Assembly: GCF_000208385.1 (NCBI RefSeq)
Contig: NC_015436.1
Location: forward strand, 682,001-746,000
DNA from: Parasphaerochaeta coccoides DSM 17374
Lineage (GTDB): Bacteria; Spirochaetota; Spirochaetia; Sphaerochaetales; Sphaerochaetaceae
Direction of reading: 5' to 3'
DNA: 64,000 nt
Part shown: in pieces, positions 29,173 through 42,951 of the stretch
How positions within the stretch are numbered: the stretch's first letter is position 1
Layout of the letters: every line of letters starts with the position of its first letter
Made by a program: the position numbers and the translations under genes
Notes under the pieces: generated by a model
The model's input: the letters and a program-made list of their open reading frames with translations, nothing else
Told to the model about the DNA's origin: nothing
Database searches by the model: none

Positions 29173-30012
29173 ATGATTGAATATGTATATCATCCGGCAG
29201 AGGATTTTCCTTCTGCCATGGAACAACTCCATCGCATCATTGGTCTTCTTCGGTCTCCAGAAGGCTGTCCATGGGATCGTGAACTTACTGCTCCTCGAAC
29301 GGCACAGTCAATCATTGATGAAACATACGAGTATATTGATGAATTGAAAAATCACAGGATTTCCGGTCAACGGGAAGAAATTGGAGATATCTTGATCAAT
29401 GTTGTCACGTTGTTGCACATGCATGAAGATAATGCATCATTTCCCGCAACCGACGCTATAAACGAAGTCTGTGAAAAATTGATTCGGAGACATCCACATG
29501 TTTTTACAGATACTGTATCAGCACATGACAGCACGGAAGTCCTTTCTGTCTGGAATAACGTCAAGGAAGAAATTGAAGGAAAAAAAGCGGAAAAGGAAAA
29601 TCCTTTCAGCAGAATTCCCAAAAGTCTTCCACCACTTGAACGTGCGTATGAAATTCAGAAGAAAATGAAAAAAGTCGGTTTTGAATGGCCTGACGTACAG
29701 GGAGTACTTAACAAAGTCTGTGAAGAACTCGATGAACTTGTCGATGCCACGAACACATTGGAACCGAATCAGGAACGGATTGAAGAGGAAGCCGGAGATT
29801 TGCTTTTTGCTGTCGTCAATCTAGTACGATTCCTTGGTTTCAATCCTGCACAGACCCTGCATGGAGCAAACCAGAAACTGGCAGGAAGGTTTGAGGCCGT
29901 AGCTCGACTTGCTGTTGAAAGAAATATTCCGCTTGACAAGGAACATATGAGTGAAATGGATGAACTGTGGGAGGAAGTAAAAGTGTCGTCTTCTCACCAT
30001 CATCCATCGTGA
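29173..30012 (+). CDS. mazG: Nucleoside triphosphate pyrophosphohydrolase MazG
   Basis: 279 aa, usual length for the two-domain enzyme. Hydrolyses (d)NTPs to monophosphates, limiting aberrant nucleotides and affecting (p)ppGpp levels. The first domain starts LLRSPEGCPWDRE and has the Mg-binding EYIDEL...EEIGDIL pattern; the second has GFEWPD, EELDELVDA and EEEAGDLLFAVVN. The ribosome binding site AAAGGA is 11 nt from this ATG but only 1-2 nt from a 4-codon mini-ORF at 29162 whose stop overlaps the mazG ATG. Convergent with rnpB. Confidence 0.93.
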   Translation: MIEYVYHPAEDFPSAMEQLHRIIGLLRSPEGCPWDRELTAPRTAQSIIDETYEYIDELKNHRISGQREEIGDILINVVTLLHMHEDNASFPATDAINEVCEKLIRRHPHVFTDTVSAHDSTEVLSVWNNVKEEIEGKKAEKENPFSRIPKSLPPLERAYEIQKKMKKVGFEWPDVQGVLNKVCEELDELVDATNTLEPNQERIEEEAGDLLFAVVNLVRFLGFNPAQTLHGANQKLAGRFEAVARLAVERNIPLDKEHMSEMDELWEEVKVSSSHHHPS

Positions 30013-30068
30013 ACTCTATTCCCTACTCCTGTAGAGGAACAGGAAACCGTGAAAAAAAGGGAAAAAAA

Positions 30069-30405
30069 GAGGACGGTCATAAGCCGGGTTCTGTTTATGG
30101 TAATCATCTATCTACCGACTTTGTTACCAAAGCCTTCAAGCAATCTACCCGTAGGCATGAGCGGACCACTCGCCTACTGTTTGACTTTGCTCCGGACGAG
30201 GCTTGCACTGCCAGTATCATTGCTGATACCGCGGTAGGCTCTTACCCTACCTTTTCACCCTTACCATTGCTGGCGGTATGTTTTCTGTTGCGCTATCTAT
30301 AGCGTCACCGCTTCCGGGCGTTACCCGGCGTCCTGTCCTATGGAGCCCGGACTTTCCTCGTACATTCCTGTTTGCACAGGACATACGCGATTACCTGACC
30401 GCCTC
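30069..30405 (-). ncRNA. rnpB: RNase P RNA
   Basis: Minus strand. The universally conserved GAGGAAAGTCCGGGCTCC of the 5' part lies at about 30357-30340, and the 3' conserved AGAACCCGGCTTAT at about 30094-30081. The ends GAGGCGGTC and GACCGTCCTC pair to form helix P1, which sets the borders; seven T (30068-30062) follow as terminator. It is the catalytic RNA that matures tRNA 5' ends. The 5' end is only about 12 bp after the upstream zinc-ribbon gene. Confidence 0.93.
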
Positions 30406-30416
30406 ACATCACCTAT

Positions 30417-35325: not shown

Positions 35326-35772
35326 TCATCTCTTAAGTACGATTAAGCTATCTCCCCGGCGCAATGCCACGGATTCCTCTATTTTCTCCATAGTATGGAA
35401 AATTCCTGTATTTATTCCAGGGCATTCCCTTCCCTCTTGTTTCCACGTATCTACAGTCGCTACGATGGAATCCCAGAAAGGATACGTCCTGCATTGTACC
35501 GGACGAACTGGATATACGGAACAGCCATTTTCCATAAGAAAAATACAATCAAAGTTTTTCTTTTCCCGAAGGCTCACCCTGTAATATGTACCCGTATCGA
35601 CTTTTCGGCAATAGTCGGAGAGAAAAGTTTCTTTGGAAACGCCAAGGAAGGAAGATATGTCGCTTACATCGTCATCAGAAAGGAAAACATATCCCGGACT
35701 GCCTCCGCCACAGCAATGGCCGCATCCTATGCAGGAAAAATGGAGTCCCGAAGAATAGAAAGATTCCGCCAT
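35326..35772 (-). CDS. YkgJ family Cys-cluster protein
   Basis: 148 aa. Begins with a CIGCGHCCGGG cluster (CxxCxxCC), the hallmark of the YkgJ/UPF0153 family thought to bind zinc or an iron-sulfur centre, followed by the family pattern C.FL..NGC.VY..RP.QCRTYPFW. The function of the family is not established. AGGA lies upstream of the ATG. Downstream of tRNA-Tyr and upstream of dnaG on the same strand. Confidence 0.85.
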   Translation of the reverse strand: MAESFYSSGLHFSCIGCGHCCGGGSPGYVFLSDDDVSDISSFLGVSKETFLSDYCRKVDTGTYYRVSLREKKNFDCIFLMENGCSVYPVRPVQCRTYPFWDSIVATVDTWKQEGRECPGINTGIFHTMEKIEESVALRRGDSLIVLKR

Positions 35773-35839
35773 GCTGGCTCCTCGGTAACAATACTTAAGA
35801 GAAAAAAAGCCTTCCTCTTATGAAGAAGGCTGTCCGGTT

Positions 35840-35920
35840 GGAGAGAGAAGGATTCGAACCTTCGAAGGCGGAGCCAACAGATTTACAGTCTGCCCCCTTT
35901 GACCGCTCGGGAACCTCTCC
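35840..35920 (-). tRNA. tRNA-Tyr (anticodon GUA)
   Basis: Minus-strand cloverleaf: acceptor GGAGAGG/TCTCTCC, anticodon arm CAGA-CTGTAAA-TCTG, a long variable arm typical of class II tRNA-Tyr, and T arm GAAGG-TTCGAAT-CCTTC. No CCA is encoded. Preceded by its own promoter. Confidence 0.95.
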
Positions 35921-35966
35921 GTTCACGTAAGACTTGCAAAGCTAACAAATCTTGTAAAGCATAGTG

Positions 35967-35995
35967 ACTGTACCTGTTTTGTTTTTTTCTGTCAA
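35967..35995 (-). promoter_or_regulatory. Promoter of tRNA-Tyr
   Basis: Minus strand: perfect TTGACA (35995-35990), 17-bp A-rich spacer, TACAGT (35972-35967), placed about 45 bp before the mature tRNA 5' end. Confidence 0.6.
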
Positions 35996-36150
35996 CACCG
36001 AAAAAATGCGAATCCATTATAATCTACCAAACCATCCAAAATGATTCTTTTTGTTTCCCGCTGACATTTCCTGCCAATGTCTTCTAGTGGGAAAGACTAT
36101 CCTTGTCGGAGCGGTCGGCAAAGGTGTATCATCTCTAATACGGAGAAACA

Positions 36151-37386
36151 ATGTCCACTACAATACAGACAGCATACGCACGGTTGGTCACCGATGGGCT
36201 CCTATCGCTCCAGCCAGGAGAAATCCTATCAATCAATTCACCGGAGAGTGGGTTGTATCTTGCCCGGCTCATCGCCCGTCTTGCAACGCAGAAAACCGGA
36301 CAGAAAGCATACATAGTCATGACAAGTTCAGGTAGGCATATGGAGACCTTGACGATTCTTCCTGAAGGCAGTGTCGAAGCATTCCTTCCTCCGGAAACAG
36401 GAATGGCGATGCTCACATTGTTCGATGCAGGAGAATTGATCGGAGAAGCCATGGATTTGCGGAAAGTAAAGGATGCCGATGTTGTTTTTCTCCAGAGAAC
36501 AGGCATGCTTTCAGATCCTCCATTCTTTGACAGAAAGATTGGCGTACCTTGGTCGGTCATCCCCTATCCCAGTCAGGACTGGGCATCACGATTGTGGCAG
36601 GATGAAAAAGATACTGATGCCCTGTGGCTCATGCTCTCATCACTCTGCTCGCTTGATTCAGATAACTTCATTTCGGATTTTTCCAGCATAGTTGGTCTTG
36701 CACGCCACAGAAGCAAATATTTGTCCAACTTGGGGCCGCTTTCCTTGAGCATCGAGGGAGAAGGTACTTCACTGCGTGTCAGGACAGCCCTTGAAAGCCA
36801 TTGGGAAGGCGGTTATCAACTCTTGGAAAATGGACGCCAGTTTGTCAGCGGAATCATGGAAAACAGGAGTACCACCGCCTTGGATAAATTTTCCGCAGAC
36901 GGCGTAATGAGAGCAAGCAAGCCATTCTCCTTGTTCGGGGGTACCGTCTCAGGAGCCGTCTTCTCATTCAAAAACGGTACGCTTTCCACATGGGCCGCCG
37001 ATGAAGGTGAAGACCTGCTTGGAGCATTCCTTGAACTGGATGCCGATGCTCCGCTTGTCGGTTCCTTCTCCTTGGTCGATGCTGGCTCCCGGAATGATGT
37101 CGTCCAGCAAACATACGCCCTGCCCCTTCTTGAGCGTCTGAGGACGACAACCCTTGGATTTGGCGGTTGTCCGGTTGACTGTGTGGACGGTGGTAAGAAA
37201 GAAGGTGATGCGATTACCACAGGGCATGTCCAGTATAACATGTCGGTCGCACGGGCTGATTGCCCCATCGGTACCAGAAAAATGACCATCACGGCAACAG
37301 CAGAAGATGGAAAAAAGTTTGTCATAATGAAAGAGGGACAGTTTAATGATCTTCTTCTGGAAGAAAAGAAACGTCCTGGGAGGTAA
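36151..37386 (+). CDS. M29 aminopeptidase-like protein lacking most metal ligands
   Basis: 411 aa; GGAGA 4 nt before the ATG. It matches the next gene over its whole length: SLQPGEILSIN, LGPLSLSIEG, FSFKNG, SLVDAGS and a final TAEDGKKFVIMKEGQF corresponding to TRAGKEVPVIKKGHF. At the positions of the two-metal site the ligands differ: the first Glu is Asp (D250), the second Glu is Ser (S305), the ENASCH His segment is replaced by RTTTLG, and the HTDFMIG motif reads RADCPIG. I infer a catalytically altered or inactive paralogue, possibly a partner of its neighbour, since M29 enzymes are dimers. The two genes are 2 bp apart. Confidence 0.75.
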   Translation: MSTTIQTAYARLVTDGLLSLQPGEILSINSPESGLYLARLIARLATQKTGQKAYIVMTSSGRHMETLTILPEGSVEAFLPPETGMAMLTLFDAGELIGEAMDLRKVKDADVVFLQRTGMLSDPPFFDRKIGVPWSVIPYPSQDWASRLWQDEKDTDALWLMLSSLCSLDSDNFISDFSSIVGLARHRSKYLSNLGPLSLSIEGEGTSLRVRTALESHWEGGYQLLENGRQFVSGIMENRSTTALDKFSADGVMRASKPFSLFGGTVSGAVFSFKNGTLSTWAADEGEDLLGAFLELDADAPLVGSFSLVDAGSRNDVVQQTYALPLLERLRTTTLGFGGCPVDCVDGGKKEGDAITTGHVQYNMSVARADCPIGTRKMTITATAEDGKKFVIMKEGQFNDLLLEEKKRPGR

Positions 37387-37388
37387 AC

Positions 37389-38615
37389 GTGTACGAAGGA
37401 AAAATCGACCGCTATGCCAGGCTTGTACTGCGCAAAGGCATCAACCTGAAGAAAGGACAGAACCTGTTCATCAAGACAGGGCCGGGGACATACTATTTTG
37501 CCCGTTCCCTTGCAAAGTGCGCATATGAACTTGGCGCCGGACTTGTAGAATTTCTCCTTGAGGATTTGGACATCCTTTCCTCCAGACTTTCCGCGCAGGA
37601 TGACGCCGAGGTTCAGAAGTATCTTCCGTGGCAGTCCGGTATCAATGAAAGCGTAATAAAAGATGAGTGGGCGTACATTGCCATCAAGACGACCGAGGAT
37701 AGTCTTGACCACGGGCCTCTCGACCCGGACAAGTATGCTTTATTTTCCAAGGCAACACGCAGGGTCAATACTGACGTCCAGAGACTCCGTATGACGCATC
37801 AACTACCATGGTGTGTCGTATGCGTGCCAGGCCCTCGATGGGCAAAGCAGATATTCGGTTCGGATGATCCGACCATCGACCATCTGTGGCAGGTCATTGC
37901 GCCGATAGTCATGATCGACAAGTCCGATCCAGAAGACGCATGGGATCAAAAGGACATCTTTCTGAAAAAACGCATCGCCATTCTCAATGAGATGGAAGTA
38001 GACAGTCTCCATTTTTCCAGTCCTGTCACGGACTTGGTCATTGGATTCAATGAAAAACATCGCTGGCTGGGAGGAAGCAGCATGCTGTCCGACGGCCGTC
38101 CCTTCTTCCCCAACATACCGACCGAGGAAATCTTCACTGTCCCCGACATGACACGGGCAGAAGGGTATGTGACCAGCACGCGACCGGTCACGGTAATGGA
38201 TACTCCTACCGAGGAAGTCCGTTTTGTCTTCAAGAATGGGCGCGTAGTTGATTTTAACGCTCGCAAGGGAGCAGAAGTCATCAGAAAGCATTTGGAAGTG
38301 GATGAGGGATCCAGTCGGTTAGGCGAATGCGCTCTTGTCGATGAATCCAACCCTATTGCTGCCAGCGGACTTATATTTCATTCAATTCTCTATGATGAAA
38401 ACGCTTCATGTCATATTGCATTGGGAGCTGGTTATCCTGACTGCCTTGAAGGTGGCAGAAGCCTTGTCACGGACAAGGAGCTTCATGAGCATGGTTGCAA
38501 CACCAGTCTGATGCATACGGATTTCATGATTGGATCAAAAGAAACTGATGTCACGGCCATAACCAGGGCAGGAAAAGAAGTACCTGTAATAAAAAAAGGA
38601 CATTTCGTTATCTAG
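37389..38615 (+). CDS. M29 family (thermophilic-type) aminopeptidase
   Basis: 408 aa from a GTG with GGAGG 5 nt upstream. Broad-specificity metallo-aminopeptidase of the AmpS/PepS/AmpII type that works on peptides in the cytosol. The expected metal ligands are all visible: Glu in RAEGYV (E258), Glu in LGECAL (E313), His in ENASCHIALG (H342), and His and Asp in MHTDFMIGS (H376, D378). Directly follows the degenerate paralogue and is certainly co-transcribed with it; coaX lies convergent downstream. Confidence 0.9.
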   Translation: MYEGKIDRYARLVLRKGINLKKGQNLFIKTGPGTYYFARSLAKCAYELGAGLVEFLLEDLDILSSRLSAQDDAEVQKYLPWQSGINESVIKDEWAYIAIKTTEDSLDHGPLDPDKYALFSKATRRVNTDVQRLRMTHQLPWCVVCVPGPRWAKQIFGSDDPTIDHLWQVIAPIVMIDKSDPEDAWDQKDIFLKKRIAILNEMEVDSLHFSSPVTDLVIGFNEKHRWLGGSSMLSDGRPFFPNIPTEEIFTVPDMTRAEGYVTSTRPVTVMDTPTEEVRFVFKNGRVVDFNARKGAEVIRKHLEVDEGSSRLGECALVDESNPIAASGLIFHSILYDENASCHIALGAGYPDCLEGGRSLVTDKELHEHGCNTSLMHTDFMIGSKETDVTAITRAGKEVPVIKKGHFVI

Positions 38616-38634: not shown

Positions 38635-39408
38635 TCAGGTGGTTTCCCGGTTCATCTCACTGATGAGCCGGAGACCATCTAAAGTGTGATTCGGAGCAAG
38701 GACATCAATGCGGGGTATTTCTGAAGCAATCGTTGACGAAAGTCCACCCGTTGCAATGACTGCAATTTTTTTTCCTAGCTCTTTTTCTGTTCGCTCAATC
38801 ATGCCGTCAATCATTTCAATGTAACCCAGCATGATGCCTGCGCGGATGGAATCAACCGTATTGCGTCCAAGGACGCTTGTCGGAATCTTAAGCTCTACTT
38901 GTGGCAGCTGTGCTGTATTGCCGAACAATGCGTTGACCGCCGTGACAAGACCAGGCAGGATGGCGACTCCCAGTACTCTCCCCTTTTCATCGACCGTGGA
39001 AAAGGTCATGGCCGTTCCGCAGTCAAGGGTCATCGCTACGCGATCAGGAAACATCTGATGCGCGGCGGCCAGATTGCACATGATGTCCTGTCCTATTTCC
39101 GACGGTACGGTGGACATGTCAAGGCCGGTCTTCACCTGCATTGAAAGCATCAACGGAGAAATGGAAAAAATCCTTTGGATATCCTTCTGTATCGCACGGG
39201 TCAGGTTGGGGACGACCGAACTGATTGCCGCATGTCTTACGGCAGTCCTGTCGAATCCTGAATTTTCCCAGAGGGTTTCCATGATGACAAGGTATTCATC
39301 CGAAGTCTTCTTCGTATCAGTATGGATGCGCCATGTCCTGCCCCATTGCTTTCCATCATGGAAGGACATGACTATGTTTGTGTTTCCTATATCCACGGCA
39401 AGGAACAT
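38635..39408 (-). CDS. coaX: Type III pantothenate kinase
   Basis: 257 aa. First step of coenzyme A synthesis, the acetyl-CoA-insensitive and K+-dependent form. Motifs: N-terminal VDIGNTNIVMSF phosphate loop, LTLDCGTAMTFSTVD, and GGLSSTIA near the C-terminus. AGGAGG precedes the ATG and lies immediately after the ABC-F stop codon, so the two form an operon. Confidence 0.95.
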   Translation of the reverse strand: MFLAVDIGNTNIVMSFHDGKQWGRTWRIHTDTKKTSDEYLVIMETLWENSGFDRTAVRHAAISSVVPNLTRAIQKDIQRIFSISPLMLSMQVKTGLDMSTVPSEIGQDIMCNLAAAHQMFPDRVAMTLDCGTAMTFSTVDEKGRVLGVAILPGLVTAVNALFGNTAQLPQVELKIPTSVLGRNTVDSIRAGIMLGYIEMIDGMIERTEKELGKKIAVIATGGLSSTIASEIPRIDVLAPNHTLDGLRLISEMNRETT

Positions 39409-39418
39409 ATGTGCCCTC

Positions 39419-41056
39419 CTAGAGCGAAAGCTCAGGCTTCATTCCCCCATACATTTTTTCCCGCAAAGCACGGATGGAGGCATCACGCATATAATCATCA
39501 AATCCCATCCTCCGGTCAATGATACCGTTGGGAGTGAACTCGATGAGGCGGTTTGCAATTGAATCGACGAACTGATGGTCGTGACTATTGAAAAGCAAGA
39601 CTCCAGGGAAATCAATCAAACCATTATTCAATGCCGTGATTGCCTCCAGGTCAAGATGGCTTGTCGGTTCATCAAGGATGATTGCATTGCCTTGTTCAAG
39701 CATAATCTTTGACAAGACGCAGCGGACTTTTTCTCCTCCTGACAGAACGAGACAACTTTTCAGAGCTTCATCTCCGGAGAACAACATGCGACCAAGGAAT
39801 GAACGAATGTACGTTTCATCTTTGTCCTCAGAATACTGAGACAGCCAGTCAGTTATGTTCATGTCATCCTGGAAAAGATGCGTGTTATCTTTCGGGAAAT
39901 AAGAAACAGATGTCGTCACGCCCCAGTTATATTCGCCGGAATCAGGCTTCATCTCTCCCGTAAGTATCTGAAACAATGTGGTCTTGGCATAATGATTCGG
40001 ACCGACAAAAGCTATCTTGTCTCCATTATTGAGAGAAAGCGTGAAATGGGAAAGAATTTCCTCTCCATCCACTGATTTCGTGAGATCCTTGATTTCCAGA
40101 ACCGTGCGGCCTATTTCACGTAAAGGCTTGAAACCGACATACGGGAACCTTCGGGAGGAGGGACGGATATCATCGACCGTCAACTTGTCAATGAGTTTCT
40201 TGCGGCTGGTCGCCTGTCGAGCCTTTGCGACATTACTGGAAAAGCGTTGGATGAATTCCTTGAGTTCGGAAATCTTCTCCTCCCTACGTTTCTTGTCATC
40301 CTTTTGCTGTTTTGCCGCAATCTGGCTGGCCATGTACCAGAAGTCATAGTTGCCGACGCTAAGCTGTATCTTGCCAAAATCAATGTCCGCGATATGTGTA
40401 CAGACTGAATTGAGGAAGTGTCTGTCATGTGATACGACAATGACGGTATTGTTGAAATTCTCCAGGAAGTTCTCCAGCCAATGGACGGAATCGAGGTCCA
40501 GATGGTTCGTCGGTTCGTCCAGCAACAGGATGTCAGGCGTACCGAACAAAGCCTGGGCAAGCAGGACGCGGACTTTCAAGTTGTCTTCCACTTCGGACAT
40601 CTTCCGTTCATGCAGCTTGACATCAATACCGAGACCAGACAGCAGTTGTCCGGCTTCAGCCTCTGCTTCCCAACCACCCAGCTCGGCAAAGTCACCTTCC
40701 AAAGTAGCGGCTCGCAGCCCATCTTCCTCAGAAAAGTTTTCCTTCGCATAGATTTCATCACGTTCCTTCATGATGCTATATAATTGTTTATGCCCCATGA
40801 TGACTGTCTCGATGACAGAAAAATCATTGAAGGCAAAATGATCCTGACGAAGGACGGCAAGCCTTTCCCCTGGCGTAATGATGATTTCTCCCGTATCCGG
40901 TTCAATTTCTCCAGACATGATTTTCAAGAAAGTCGATTTCCCCGCGCCGTTGGCTCCGATGACTCCGTAACAATTTCCAGGTGTGAACTTAATGTTCACA
41001 TCCTTGAACAAGACTTGGGTTCCATATGAGAGGGATATGTTGGAAGCAGTAATCAC
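39419..41056 (-). CDS. ABC-F family ATPase (YbiT/EttA-like)
   Basis: 545 aa from a GTG with GAGGAG 7 nt upstream. Two ABC domains in one chain without membrane segments, joined by a charged linker (about residues 240-300), as in ABC-F proteins that act on the ribosome. First P-loop GANGAGKST, signatures LSGG-like and VLSGGEKVR, Walker B LLLDEPTNHLDLD and IILDEPTSHLDLE. The second P-loop reads GPNHYAKTT, with Ala where Gly normally precedes Lys; this variation is known in the YbiT-like subgroup as I remember it. Exact role not assignable. Downstream: coaX. Confidence 0.88.
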   Translation of the reverse strand: MITASNISLSYGTQVLFKDVNIKFTPGNCYGVIGANGAGKSTFLKIMSGEIEPDTGEIIITPGERLAVLRQDHFAFNDFSVIETVIMGHKQLYSIMKERDEIYAKENFSEEDGLRAATLEGDFAELGGWEAEAEAGQLLSGLGIDVKLHERKMSEVEDNLKVRVLLAQALFGTPDILLLDEPTNHLDLDSVHWLENFLENFNNTVIVVSHDRHFLNSVCTHIADIDFGKIQLSVGNYDFWYMASQIAAKQQKDDKKRREEKISELKEFIQRFSSNVAKARQATSRKKLIDKLTVDDIRPSSRRFPYVGFKPLREIGRTVLEIKDLTKSVDGEEILSHFTLSLNNGDKIAFVGPNHYAKTTLFQILTGEMKPDSGEYNWGVTTSVSYFPKDNTHLFQDDMNITDWLSQYSEDKDETYIRSFLGRMLFSGDEALKSCLVLSGGEKVRCVLSKIMLEQGNAIILDEPTSHLDLEAITALNNGLIDFPGVLLFNSHDHQFVDSIANRLIEFTPNGIIDRRMGFDDYMRDASIRALREKMYGGMKPELSL

Positions 41057-41937: not shown

Positions 41938-42951
41938 TCAGTTTTTCTTGAATGCCGTTACCCTGGGAGAAGCACCGATGTCAAATCCGGAGGCTCTACC
42001 GTCTCTAAGATATTCATATGCGAGTCCTGCTACCATGGCGGCGTTATCTGTACAGAGTTTCATTGAAGGAAATGCGACGGTCAAGCCATTTTTTTCCAAA
42101 GCGGACAGTTCGCTCCTCAACAAAGAATTGGCAGCCACGCCGCCACCTGCGGCCAGACGGGTGAGTCCGGTATCTTCCAAGGCTTTCATCACACGTTTCA
42201 TCAATATCCCTACCGCAGAGCGTTGGAAGCTAGCAGCCAGGTTTTCCGGTGTTTGTACGCTTGTTCCGTTCCAGAATTTTTCCTTCTGGTTGATTACTGC
42301 TGTCTTTAGACCGCTATAGCTTACATCATACGGATGTTCTGTACGATCCAAGGAAGGGCCAGGGAAAAGATATGCATGGGAATCGCCGTTCTTGGCAAGC
42401 CTATCGATGATAACGCCTCCGGGATATCCTAAGTCATAGTGTTTAGCAACCTTGTCGAAGGCTTCGCCGATGGCATCATCAATTGTTGTGCCAAGCACTT
42501 CTATCTCATCATATCCCAGCACCTTACAGATGACCGTGTGTCCACCTGATACAAGGATGCCCATGTACGGATATTCCAAAGGATGCTCCATCTGGGATGC
42601 ATAGAGATGGGCGCGGATATGGTCAATTCCAATGAACGGAATACCACGTGACGCGGCTAATCCTTTTGCAAAATTCAATCCGACCAGGAGTGCTCCGAGC
42701 AATCCTGGCCTATTAGTCACTGCAATTGCATCAATATCATCGACCTTCATATCTGCACCGGCAATGGCTGCTGAAACGACCTGCCCTATCCATTCTGTAT
42801 GAAGACGGCTTGCCAATTCCGGAACGACACCGAGATAGGGTTTGTGCAGTTCAATTTGTGTCGCAATAATATTGCTCAATATTTCTGTCCCATCACGCAC
42901 TACTGCGGCGGAACATTCATCACATGAGGTTTCAATTCCCAGTATTGTCAT
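41938..42951 (-). CDS. tsaD: tRNA N6-adenosine threonylcarbamoyltransferase TsaD
   Basis: 337 aa. Transfers the threonylcarbamoyl group to A37 of ANN-decoding tRNAs. Begins ILGIETSCDECSAAVV; metal-binding His pair in GIDHIRAHLYA; SGGHT and GYPGG motifs; RLAAGGGVAANS near the C-terminus and CTDNAAMVAGL. The tRNA-Thr at 43463-43533 would be a substrate. Ribosome binding is weak (GAAAGAG). A small unknown gene lies 22 bp upstream. Confidence 0.96.
   Translation of the reverse strand: MTILGIETSCDECSAAVVRDGTEILSNIIATQIELHKPYLGVVPELASRLHTEWIGQVVSAAIAGADMKVDDIDAIAVTNRPGLLGALLVGLNFAKGLAASRGIPFIGIDHIRAHLYASQMEHPLEYPYMGILVSGGHTVICKVLGYDEIEVLGTTIDDAIGEAFDKVAKHYDLGYPGGVIIDRLAKNGDSHAYLFPGPSLDRTEHPYDVSYSGLKTAVINQKEKFWNGTSVQTPENLAASFQRSAVGILMKRVMKALEDTGLTRLAAGGGVAANSLLRSELSALEKNGLTVAFPSMKLCTDNAAMVAGLAYEYLRDGRASGFDIGASPRVTAFKKN

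Follow-up and report, generated by a model that had tools for sequence, protein, structure and literature searches.

A metal-less M29 paralogue, widespread in the Sphaerochaetaceae, with a predicted role independent of the intact aminopeptidase beside it

The genome of Parasphaerochaeta coccoides DSM 17374, a single contig of 2,227,296 bases, carries two genes of the M29 aminopeptidase family in tandem, the first of which lacks most of the residues that form the catalytic centre in the second. Tandem pairs of a dead and a live enzyme are usually read as regulatory partners. Is the metal-less protein a partner of this kind, a gene in decay, or a protein with a task of its own? We examined the pair in the window (the whole stretch of 64,000 nucleotides that was analysed) and in related genomes.

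Concerning the locus itself, a sequence-only reading had described two M29 genes 2 bp apart, the first of them preceded by GGAGA and open over its full length. This description holds in every part: both open reading frames were recovered on the same strand, and only two bases (37387-37388) separate the stop codon of the metal-less gene from the start codon of the live gene. The features are collected in Table 1. The position of GGGAGG inside the metal-less gene suggests that translation of the live gene may be coupled to it. Both proteins exceed the curated Pfam cut-off of 27 for Peptidase_M29 (PF02073) over nearly the whole profile, at 164.9 bits for the metal-less and 433.3 bits for the live protein, and they are 22% identical over 400 aligned residues. 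Compared with the sequences of solved structures, the live protein matched AmpT, PepS and AmpS with E values of 1e-73 to 1e-62, and the metal-less protein matched the same three at 2e-17 to 8e-13.

Table 1. Positions of the M29 pair, its sequence signals and its conserved neighbours in the window.
Feature	Position	Strand	Basis
Metal-less M29 paralogue, P0001, 411 aa, ATG start	36151..37386	+	ORF, Pfam, model, column reading
Intact M29 aminopeptidase, P0002, 408 aa, GTG start	37389..38615	+	ORF, Pfam, column reading
GGAGA, ribosome-binding-like, before the ATG of the metal-less gene	36142..36146	+	sequence read
GGGAGG, ribosome-binding-like for the live gene, within the 3' end of the metal-less gene	37378..37383	+	sequence read
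coaX, type III pantothenate kinase, convergent neighbour	38635..39408	-	cluster c2; Pfam Pan_kinase on cluster member
ABC-F type ATPase gene, conserved neighbour	39419..41056	-	cluster c1; Pfam ABC_tran x2 on cluster member
Presumed TsaD-like gene, conserved neighbour	41938..42951	-	cluster c3

The cluster c3 neighbour is one that we take, from its sequence, to be TsaD-like. A third, distant M29 gene (L002; G000:C1:922080-923123) keeps all five metal ligands, so that the organism has two intact M29 genes plus the metal-less one. The only Rfam matches in the window were RNase P RNA and tRNAs; the class A RNase P RNA gene (30064-30406, minus strand, 292 bits) is overlapped on the opposite strand by a probably spurious ORF (29967-30302).

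The catalytic set of M29 enzymes is described as Glu, Glu, His, Tyr, His and Asp (PMC7023490, PMC4661694, excerpts). We anchored these six columns on AmpT (2AYI: E250, E316, H345, Y352, H376 and D378). The live window protein has all six residues (E247, E313, H342, Y349, H376 and D378). At the same columns the metal-less protein has R239, S305, T334, P341, R368 and D370; only the Asp is kept, and no His stands at any M29 ligand column. The ligands of the live protein had earlier been given as E258, E313, H342, H376 and D378, with D250 as the first counterpart in the metal-less protein. The last four of these stand. The first does not: E258 sits in RAEGYV, eleven residues past the true ligand E247, and its counterpart D250 lies in SADGVM, so that E258 and D250 are a column pair of a different motif. 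With R239 at the true column, the loss of the metal site is larger than had been claimed and the conclusion drawn from it stronger. We also considered a metal site that had shifted to nearby residues, which would have undermined the claim. This was ruled out: profile against profile, the two clades align collinearly over 393 columns, and the metal-less model superposes on AmpS along its whole length. In Lmo1603, mutation of any one of the six residues is reported to have abolished activity (PMC4661694, excerpts). Taking this mutagenesis of a relative into account, peptidase activity of the metal-less protein by the M29 mechanism is very unlikely, and the activity and the metals have presumably both been lost.

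The M29 fold, on the other hand, appears to have been kept. An AlphaFold2 monomer model of the metal-less protein (19 sequences) had a mean pLDDT of 84.6 and a pTM of 0.83, with low confidence at residues 124-127, 314-323 and 348-358 and at the last residues. M29 structures came first in a Foldseek search with this model. The VIA-align Z scores were 38.2 for AmpS (1zjc, 369 residues), 37.4 for AmpT (2ayi) and 37.3 for PepS (4icq, 4ics). Residues 1 to 402 of the model align with residues 3-415 of AmpS over those 369 residues, and the N-terminal part is full, which places the predicted model within the AmpS/AmpT fold. The next VIA-align matches were 2,5-dihydroxypyridine dioxygenase (Z 19.6) and the crocagin proteins CgnB and CgnE (Z about 10). 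In both Foldseek and VIA-align, phosphoribosyltransferases also matched the N-terminal part weakly (Z about 5), a likeness that we take as a common arrangement.

We then turned to the relatives. The sample of the order comprised 139 genomes, all of one family and from 22 genera, and was searched with a profile of the metal-less type and a profile of the live type. The two profiles separate two classes; contig-end fragments aside, the live-profile scores leave a gap between 323 and 252 bits. The metal-less gene was found by profile search in at least 100 of the 139 genomes. Among 131 distinct rows, the live copies keep 5-6 of the six catalytic residues (59/59) and the metal-less copies 0-3 (72/72), with no row at 4. 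Rows were counted as metal-less when they lacked His at column 345 or 376, so the counts at these two columns are circular in part; neither the tree nor the empty range between 0-3 and 5-6 depends on this definition. One truncated live copy (L018) is included in the 72 metal-less rows and was removed for the counts over 71 rows. In a quick tree of 72 rows, the metal-less rows formed one clade (33 rows, SH-aLRT 100) inside the Spirochaetia M29 group, on a stem of 1.06 changes per column. The clade has conserved residues that are absent from the live copies, including N29, T49, G61, P71, P123, F259 and P372. As judged from these alignments, the loss of the metal site is a pattern common to the whole clade, which speaks against chance or misalignment. 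The window copy lies on an end branch of 1.51, and its nearest relative is 35% identical at best.

Within the clade, the six catalytic columns vary widely between subclades. Column 316 corresponds to the Glu that in AmpS bridges the two metals; this Glu is kept in 53 of the 71 metal-less rows and lost in the window protein. Four metal-less copies (L052, L064, L065 and L066) have H250, E316 and H345 together with Arg at column 376; perhaps one metal site could survive in them, the other being replaced by Arg, as an intermediate state. Given the kept E316 and these four rows, some members of the clade may still carry metal or be active. Arg or Lys occupies column 376 in 48/71 rows and column 352 in 15/71, both columns in none and neither in 8. 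Placed on the tree, this exchange amounts to 3-4 independent contrasts, and the second trait differs in at most one of them; as a compensation it would represent about one independent event and is suggestive only. Any Arg or Lys among the six columns was present in 66/71 rows, a level reached in 3.7% and 1.7% of draws in a random-column control that is inflated by related rows. Three shortened metal-less copies of ~348 aa (L112, L118 and L119) have Tyr at the E316 column, and their genomes carry an intact M29 gene elsewhere. Even the metal-less copy that has diverged most, L111:3732-4724 with 331 aa and an end branch of 2.41, has an intact live gene in tandem.

The metal-less type was not found beyond the family in a class sample of 148 genomes. 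There, each of the outside places compared by eye had the better score with the live profile. We read 19 genes from other families, and as far as their fragments reach, all 19 retain the five metal ligands. When 149 genomes sampled from the phylum were searched with the metal-less profile only, no match beyond the window genome came up to 250 bits, and a contig search with the window metal-less protein as query found no relative. In the open-licence part of PubMed Central, we found no description of a metal-less M29 clade and no paper that treats M29 together with Sphaerochaeta.

The arrangement of the two genes was examined across the family. Tandem loci were present in 37 genomes, including the window, one in each; the metal-less gene precedes the live gene in all 37, with gaps of -8 to 44 bases, and one further tandem locus (L182) has the same order. 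In relatives, the locus runs smc, rnhB, sometimes DUF3276, the M29 gene or genes, convergent coaX, the ABC-F gene and the TsaD-like gene. The window locus keeps the downstream side of this order. Where relatives have the smc-rnhB side, its upstream part (35326-36150) holds tRNA-Tyr and the gene for a CxxCxxCC (zinc- or iron-chelating) protein, with other genes beyond.

The live partner is frequently missing. Among the matches listed, 45 of the 100 genomes with a metal-less gene had no live copy, and 28 of these 45 are at least 90% complete. A direct search of the 28 with the live window protein recovered the metal-less gene in 28/28 and a distant third-type M29 gene in 3. We read the metal-less gene in all 28; both His were present in none and Glu at column 316 in all. 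Assembly gaps as a general cause of the missing live gene were rejected, since these 28 genomes, from three genera, all lack it at a completeness of at least 90%. Many of the lone copies adjoin coaX at the same place, with no room for a remnant of the live gene, and in several genomes the live copy lies elsewhere and the metal-less copy is still beside coaX. Mapping the tandem state on a tree of 68 metal-less rows, with L056, L066 and L074 excluded from the counts of states, takes 8 changes, and starred branches force at least 6 of these. Tandem copies occur on both sides of the root, which suggests that the tandem state is ancestral and has been lost repeatedly. Among the surveyed loci there was no clear case of a live gene without the metal-less one at the locus (in G032 the contig ends between them), and among the matches listed, 17 genomes have a live M29 gene and no metal-less one. 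In G037 (L066:4513-5720) the live gene breaks into two frames next to an open metal-less gene, through decay or sequencing error.

The sequence-only reading had held that the first gene is retained rather than simply decaying, and had proposed looking for the same pair in relatives and estimating dN/dS there. The pair proved common, as described above, and the metal-less gene is under purifying selection. Over 36 pairs from 16 genomes of one genus with the tandem arrangement, the median dN/dS was 0.086 for the metal-less and 0.065 for the live copies (Nei-Gojobori; 36/120 pairs kept at dS < 1.5, pairs non-independent). For lone metal-less copies (dS < 2), the closest pairs gave 0.078 (G004-G023), 0.082 (G056-G072) and 0.086 (G028-G060), more diverged pairs within a genus up to 0.26, and comparisons across distant clades up to 0.66 at saturation. 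The ratio rises with divergence in both sets, to 0.23-0.25 at dN near 0.35 for tandem copies and to 0.20-0.26 at dN 0.36-0.38 for lone copies, so that lone copies show no looser constraint than tandem copies of equal divergence. Sorted by ABC-F identity, the 0.8-0.9 bin gave a mean identity of 0.296 for lone against 0.451 for tandem metal-less copies, with coaX likewise lower (0.619 against 0.711), and in the 0.7-0.75 bin the two were alike (0.268 and 0.280). Relaxed constraint after loss of the partner is not shown by these comparisons. The clade as a whole evolves fast, with a distance ratio to ABC-F of about 4-10. Selection was measured in relatives, as none is close enough to the window copy to give it a separate dN/dS value. 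Set against its nearest relative, the window copy has the fewest differences at second codon positions (0.44, compared with 0.53 at the first and 0.66 at the third). In a neutral simulation of comparable divergence, 8.2 stops arose on average, and at least 1 of 200 runs had none. Frameshifts in the orthologues would have spoken for decay, but the metal-less genes read are open frames, and the sole frameshift seen is in the live copy of G037. The metal-less gene is thus kept under selection in spite of the loss of its catalytic residues, as a pseudopeptidase would be, its inactivity being predicted.

What, then, is the gene kept for? The metal-less protein might be the dead subunit of a heterodimer, pairing with the neighbouring live enzyme and tuning its activity, stability or substrate choice. 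M29 enzymes are described as dimers (PMC7023490, excerpts), the model keeps the full N-terminal part, and the constant order and short gaps of the tandem loci are what such a pairing would predict. Nevertheless, the live copy is missing from 45 of the 100 genomes among the matches listed (28 of them confirmed by direct search), it lies elsewhere in several genomes whose metal-less gene has stayed beside coaX, and constraint on lone copies is no looser at matched divergence. The earlier suggestion that a heterodimer or a regulator of the active copy accounts for retention is weakened on both counts, by the 28 genomes of at least 90% completeness and by the selection on lone copies, and we regard this explanation as unlikely, though in genomes with the tandem pair, P. 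coccoides included, a heterodimer may form. The same survival without the second gene, together with purifying selection at the protein level, leaves very little room for the idea that translating the first gene serves mainly to set expression of the second, in spite of the gaps of -8 to 44 bases and of a ribosome-binding-like stretch for the second gene that lies within the first.

Slow decay, in which the gene would be a pseudogene in the making that is still open by chance, would fit the long end branch of the window copy and the fast evolution of the clade. It is hardly credible beside dN/dS values far below 1 in relatives, second codon positions that changed least (0.44 against 0.66 at the third), frames that are open wherever metal-less genes were read, and the 8.2 stops expected on average, although at least one simulated run stayed free of them. 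The site could instead have been remodelled around the kept Glu316 and the new Arg or Lys to catalyse a different reaction, using a single metal or none at all. Glu316 in 53/71 rows, a basic residue at column 376 (48/71) or 352 (15/71) but never at both, and a known dioxygenase of M29 fold in which one metal site is lost (7cn3, Z 19.6; PMC7356986, excerpts) all point in this direction. However, the tree leaves roughly one independent case of the 376/352 exchange, E316 is lost in the window protein, and the six columns vary between subclades in a way unlike a catalytic site; a new enzyme seems to us rather improbable.

The explanation that we favour, and consider probable, is that the first gene encodes an M29 pseudopeptidase with a role of its own, independent of the partner and probably in ligand binding. 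A tandem duplication in an ancestor of the family, very probably the Sphaerochaetaceae, would have produced the live aminopeptidase and an upstream copy. The two-metal centre of the upstream copy would have been dismantled, and this copy would have kept the two-domain M29 fold, gained its own conserved signature and come under purifying selection for a job independent of its live neighbour. Most likely the protein has given up peptide cleavage and serves to bind a peptide, an amino acid or another small ligand in the former substrate cavity. The earlier suggestion that it could bind peptides comes close to this view. Structurally, positive charge seems to have taken the place of the metals, contributed by a basic residue, Arg at the H376 column or else Arg or Lys at the Y352 column. 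The fold is kept and the clade is under selection, and the catalytic residues and often the partner are gone, which favours a binding role in the old cavity. Counted against this explanation are the Glu316 retained in most metal-less rows and the four rows that could still hold one metal, the long end branch of the window copy (1.51) in a fast clade, and the fixed order and tight spacing, which point to a connection between the two copies in genomes that have both. A bolder version, to which we would give only a minor chance, makes the clade a new functional class on the M29 fold: a metal-free site (in some members perhaps a one-metal site), with the kept Glu316 and the new Arg/Lys, would sense or process a ligand, kept after the parent peptidase had been discarded.

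Among known proteins, AmpS, AmpT and PepS agree in family (PF02073) and in the predicted two-domain fold (Z 36-38). The live window gene looks like an ordinary member of this group, and the metal-less copy differs from it in that 5/6 catalytic residues are replaced. The nearest precedent for a duplicated M29-like pair with one disrupted metal site is CgnB/CgnE of crocagin biosynthesis. In excerpts of its description, CgnE has lost metal ligands, a peptide-binding function is given, no aminopeptidase activity was observed, and duplication with a second copy that lost its metal site is inferred by the authors to have happened independently at least three times (PMC10070186). The window pair is alike in that one copy has lost metal ligands. 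According to the same excerpts, CgnB and CgnE lack most of the N-terminal dimer part and are monomers in crystals, whereas the window metal-less model keeps that part; they belong to natural-product (RiPP) clusters, whereas the neighbours of the metal-less locus in relatives are housekeeping genes (smc, rnhB, coaX, ABC-F, TsaD-like); and single copies there always keep the metal site, the reverse of the many metal-less single copies seen here. The NicX-type 2,5-dihydroxypyridine dioxygenase (7cn3, 7cup; Z 19.6) also combines an M29-like fold with a changed metal site, and is described as an iron enzyme that holds a single metal in each subunit (PMC7356986, excerpts). At the M29 ligand columns, the ones compared here, the window metal-less protein has no His. 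Ebp1 and Tma108 likewise use an aminopeptidase fold for binding, and Ebp1 has lost most of its metal-binding residues, but they belong to other families, M24 and M1 (PMC11266112, excerpts); a term search of the text of this review of metallopeptidase pseudoenzymes gave no occurrence of M29.

Together with CgnB/CgnE and NicX, our results suggest that the M29 fold has repeatedly been turned to other uses. Family-wide, the protein matches an aminopeptidase family, yet it is probably not an aminopeptidase. The many relatives in which the live enzyme is gone and the metal-less protein survives provide a natural control, so that a partner-independent role can be tested in cultured relatives. The feature is also more general than the window alone could show, a predicted pseudopeptidase on the M29 fold that is carried by much of the family.
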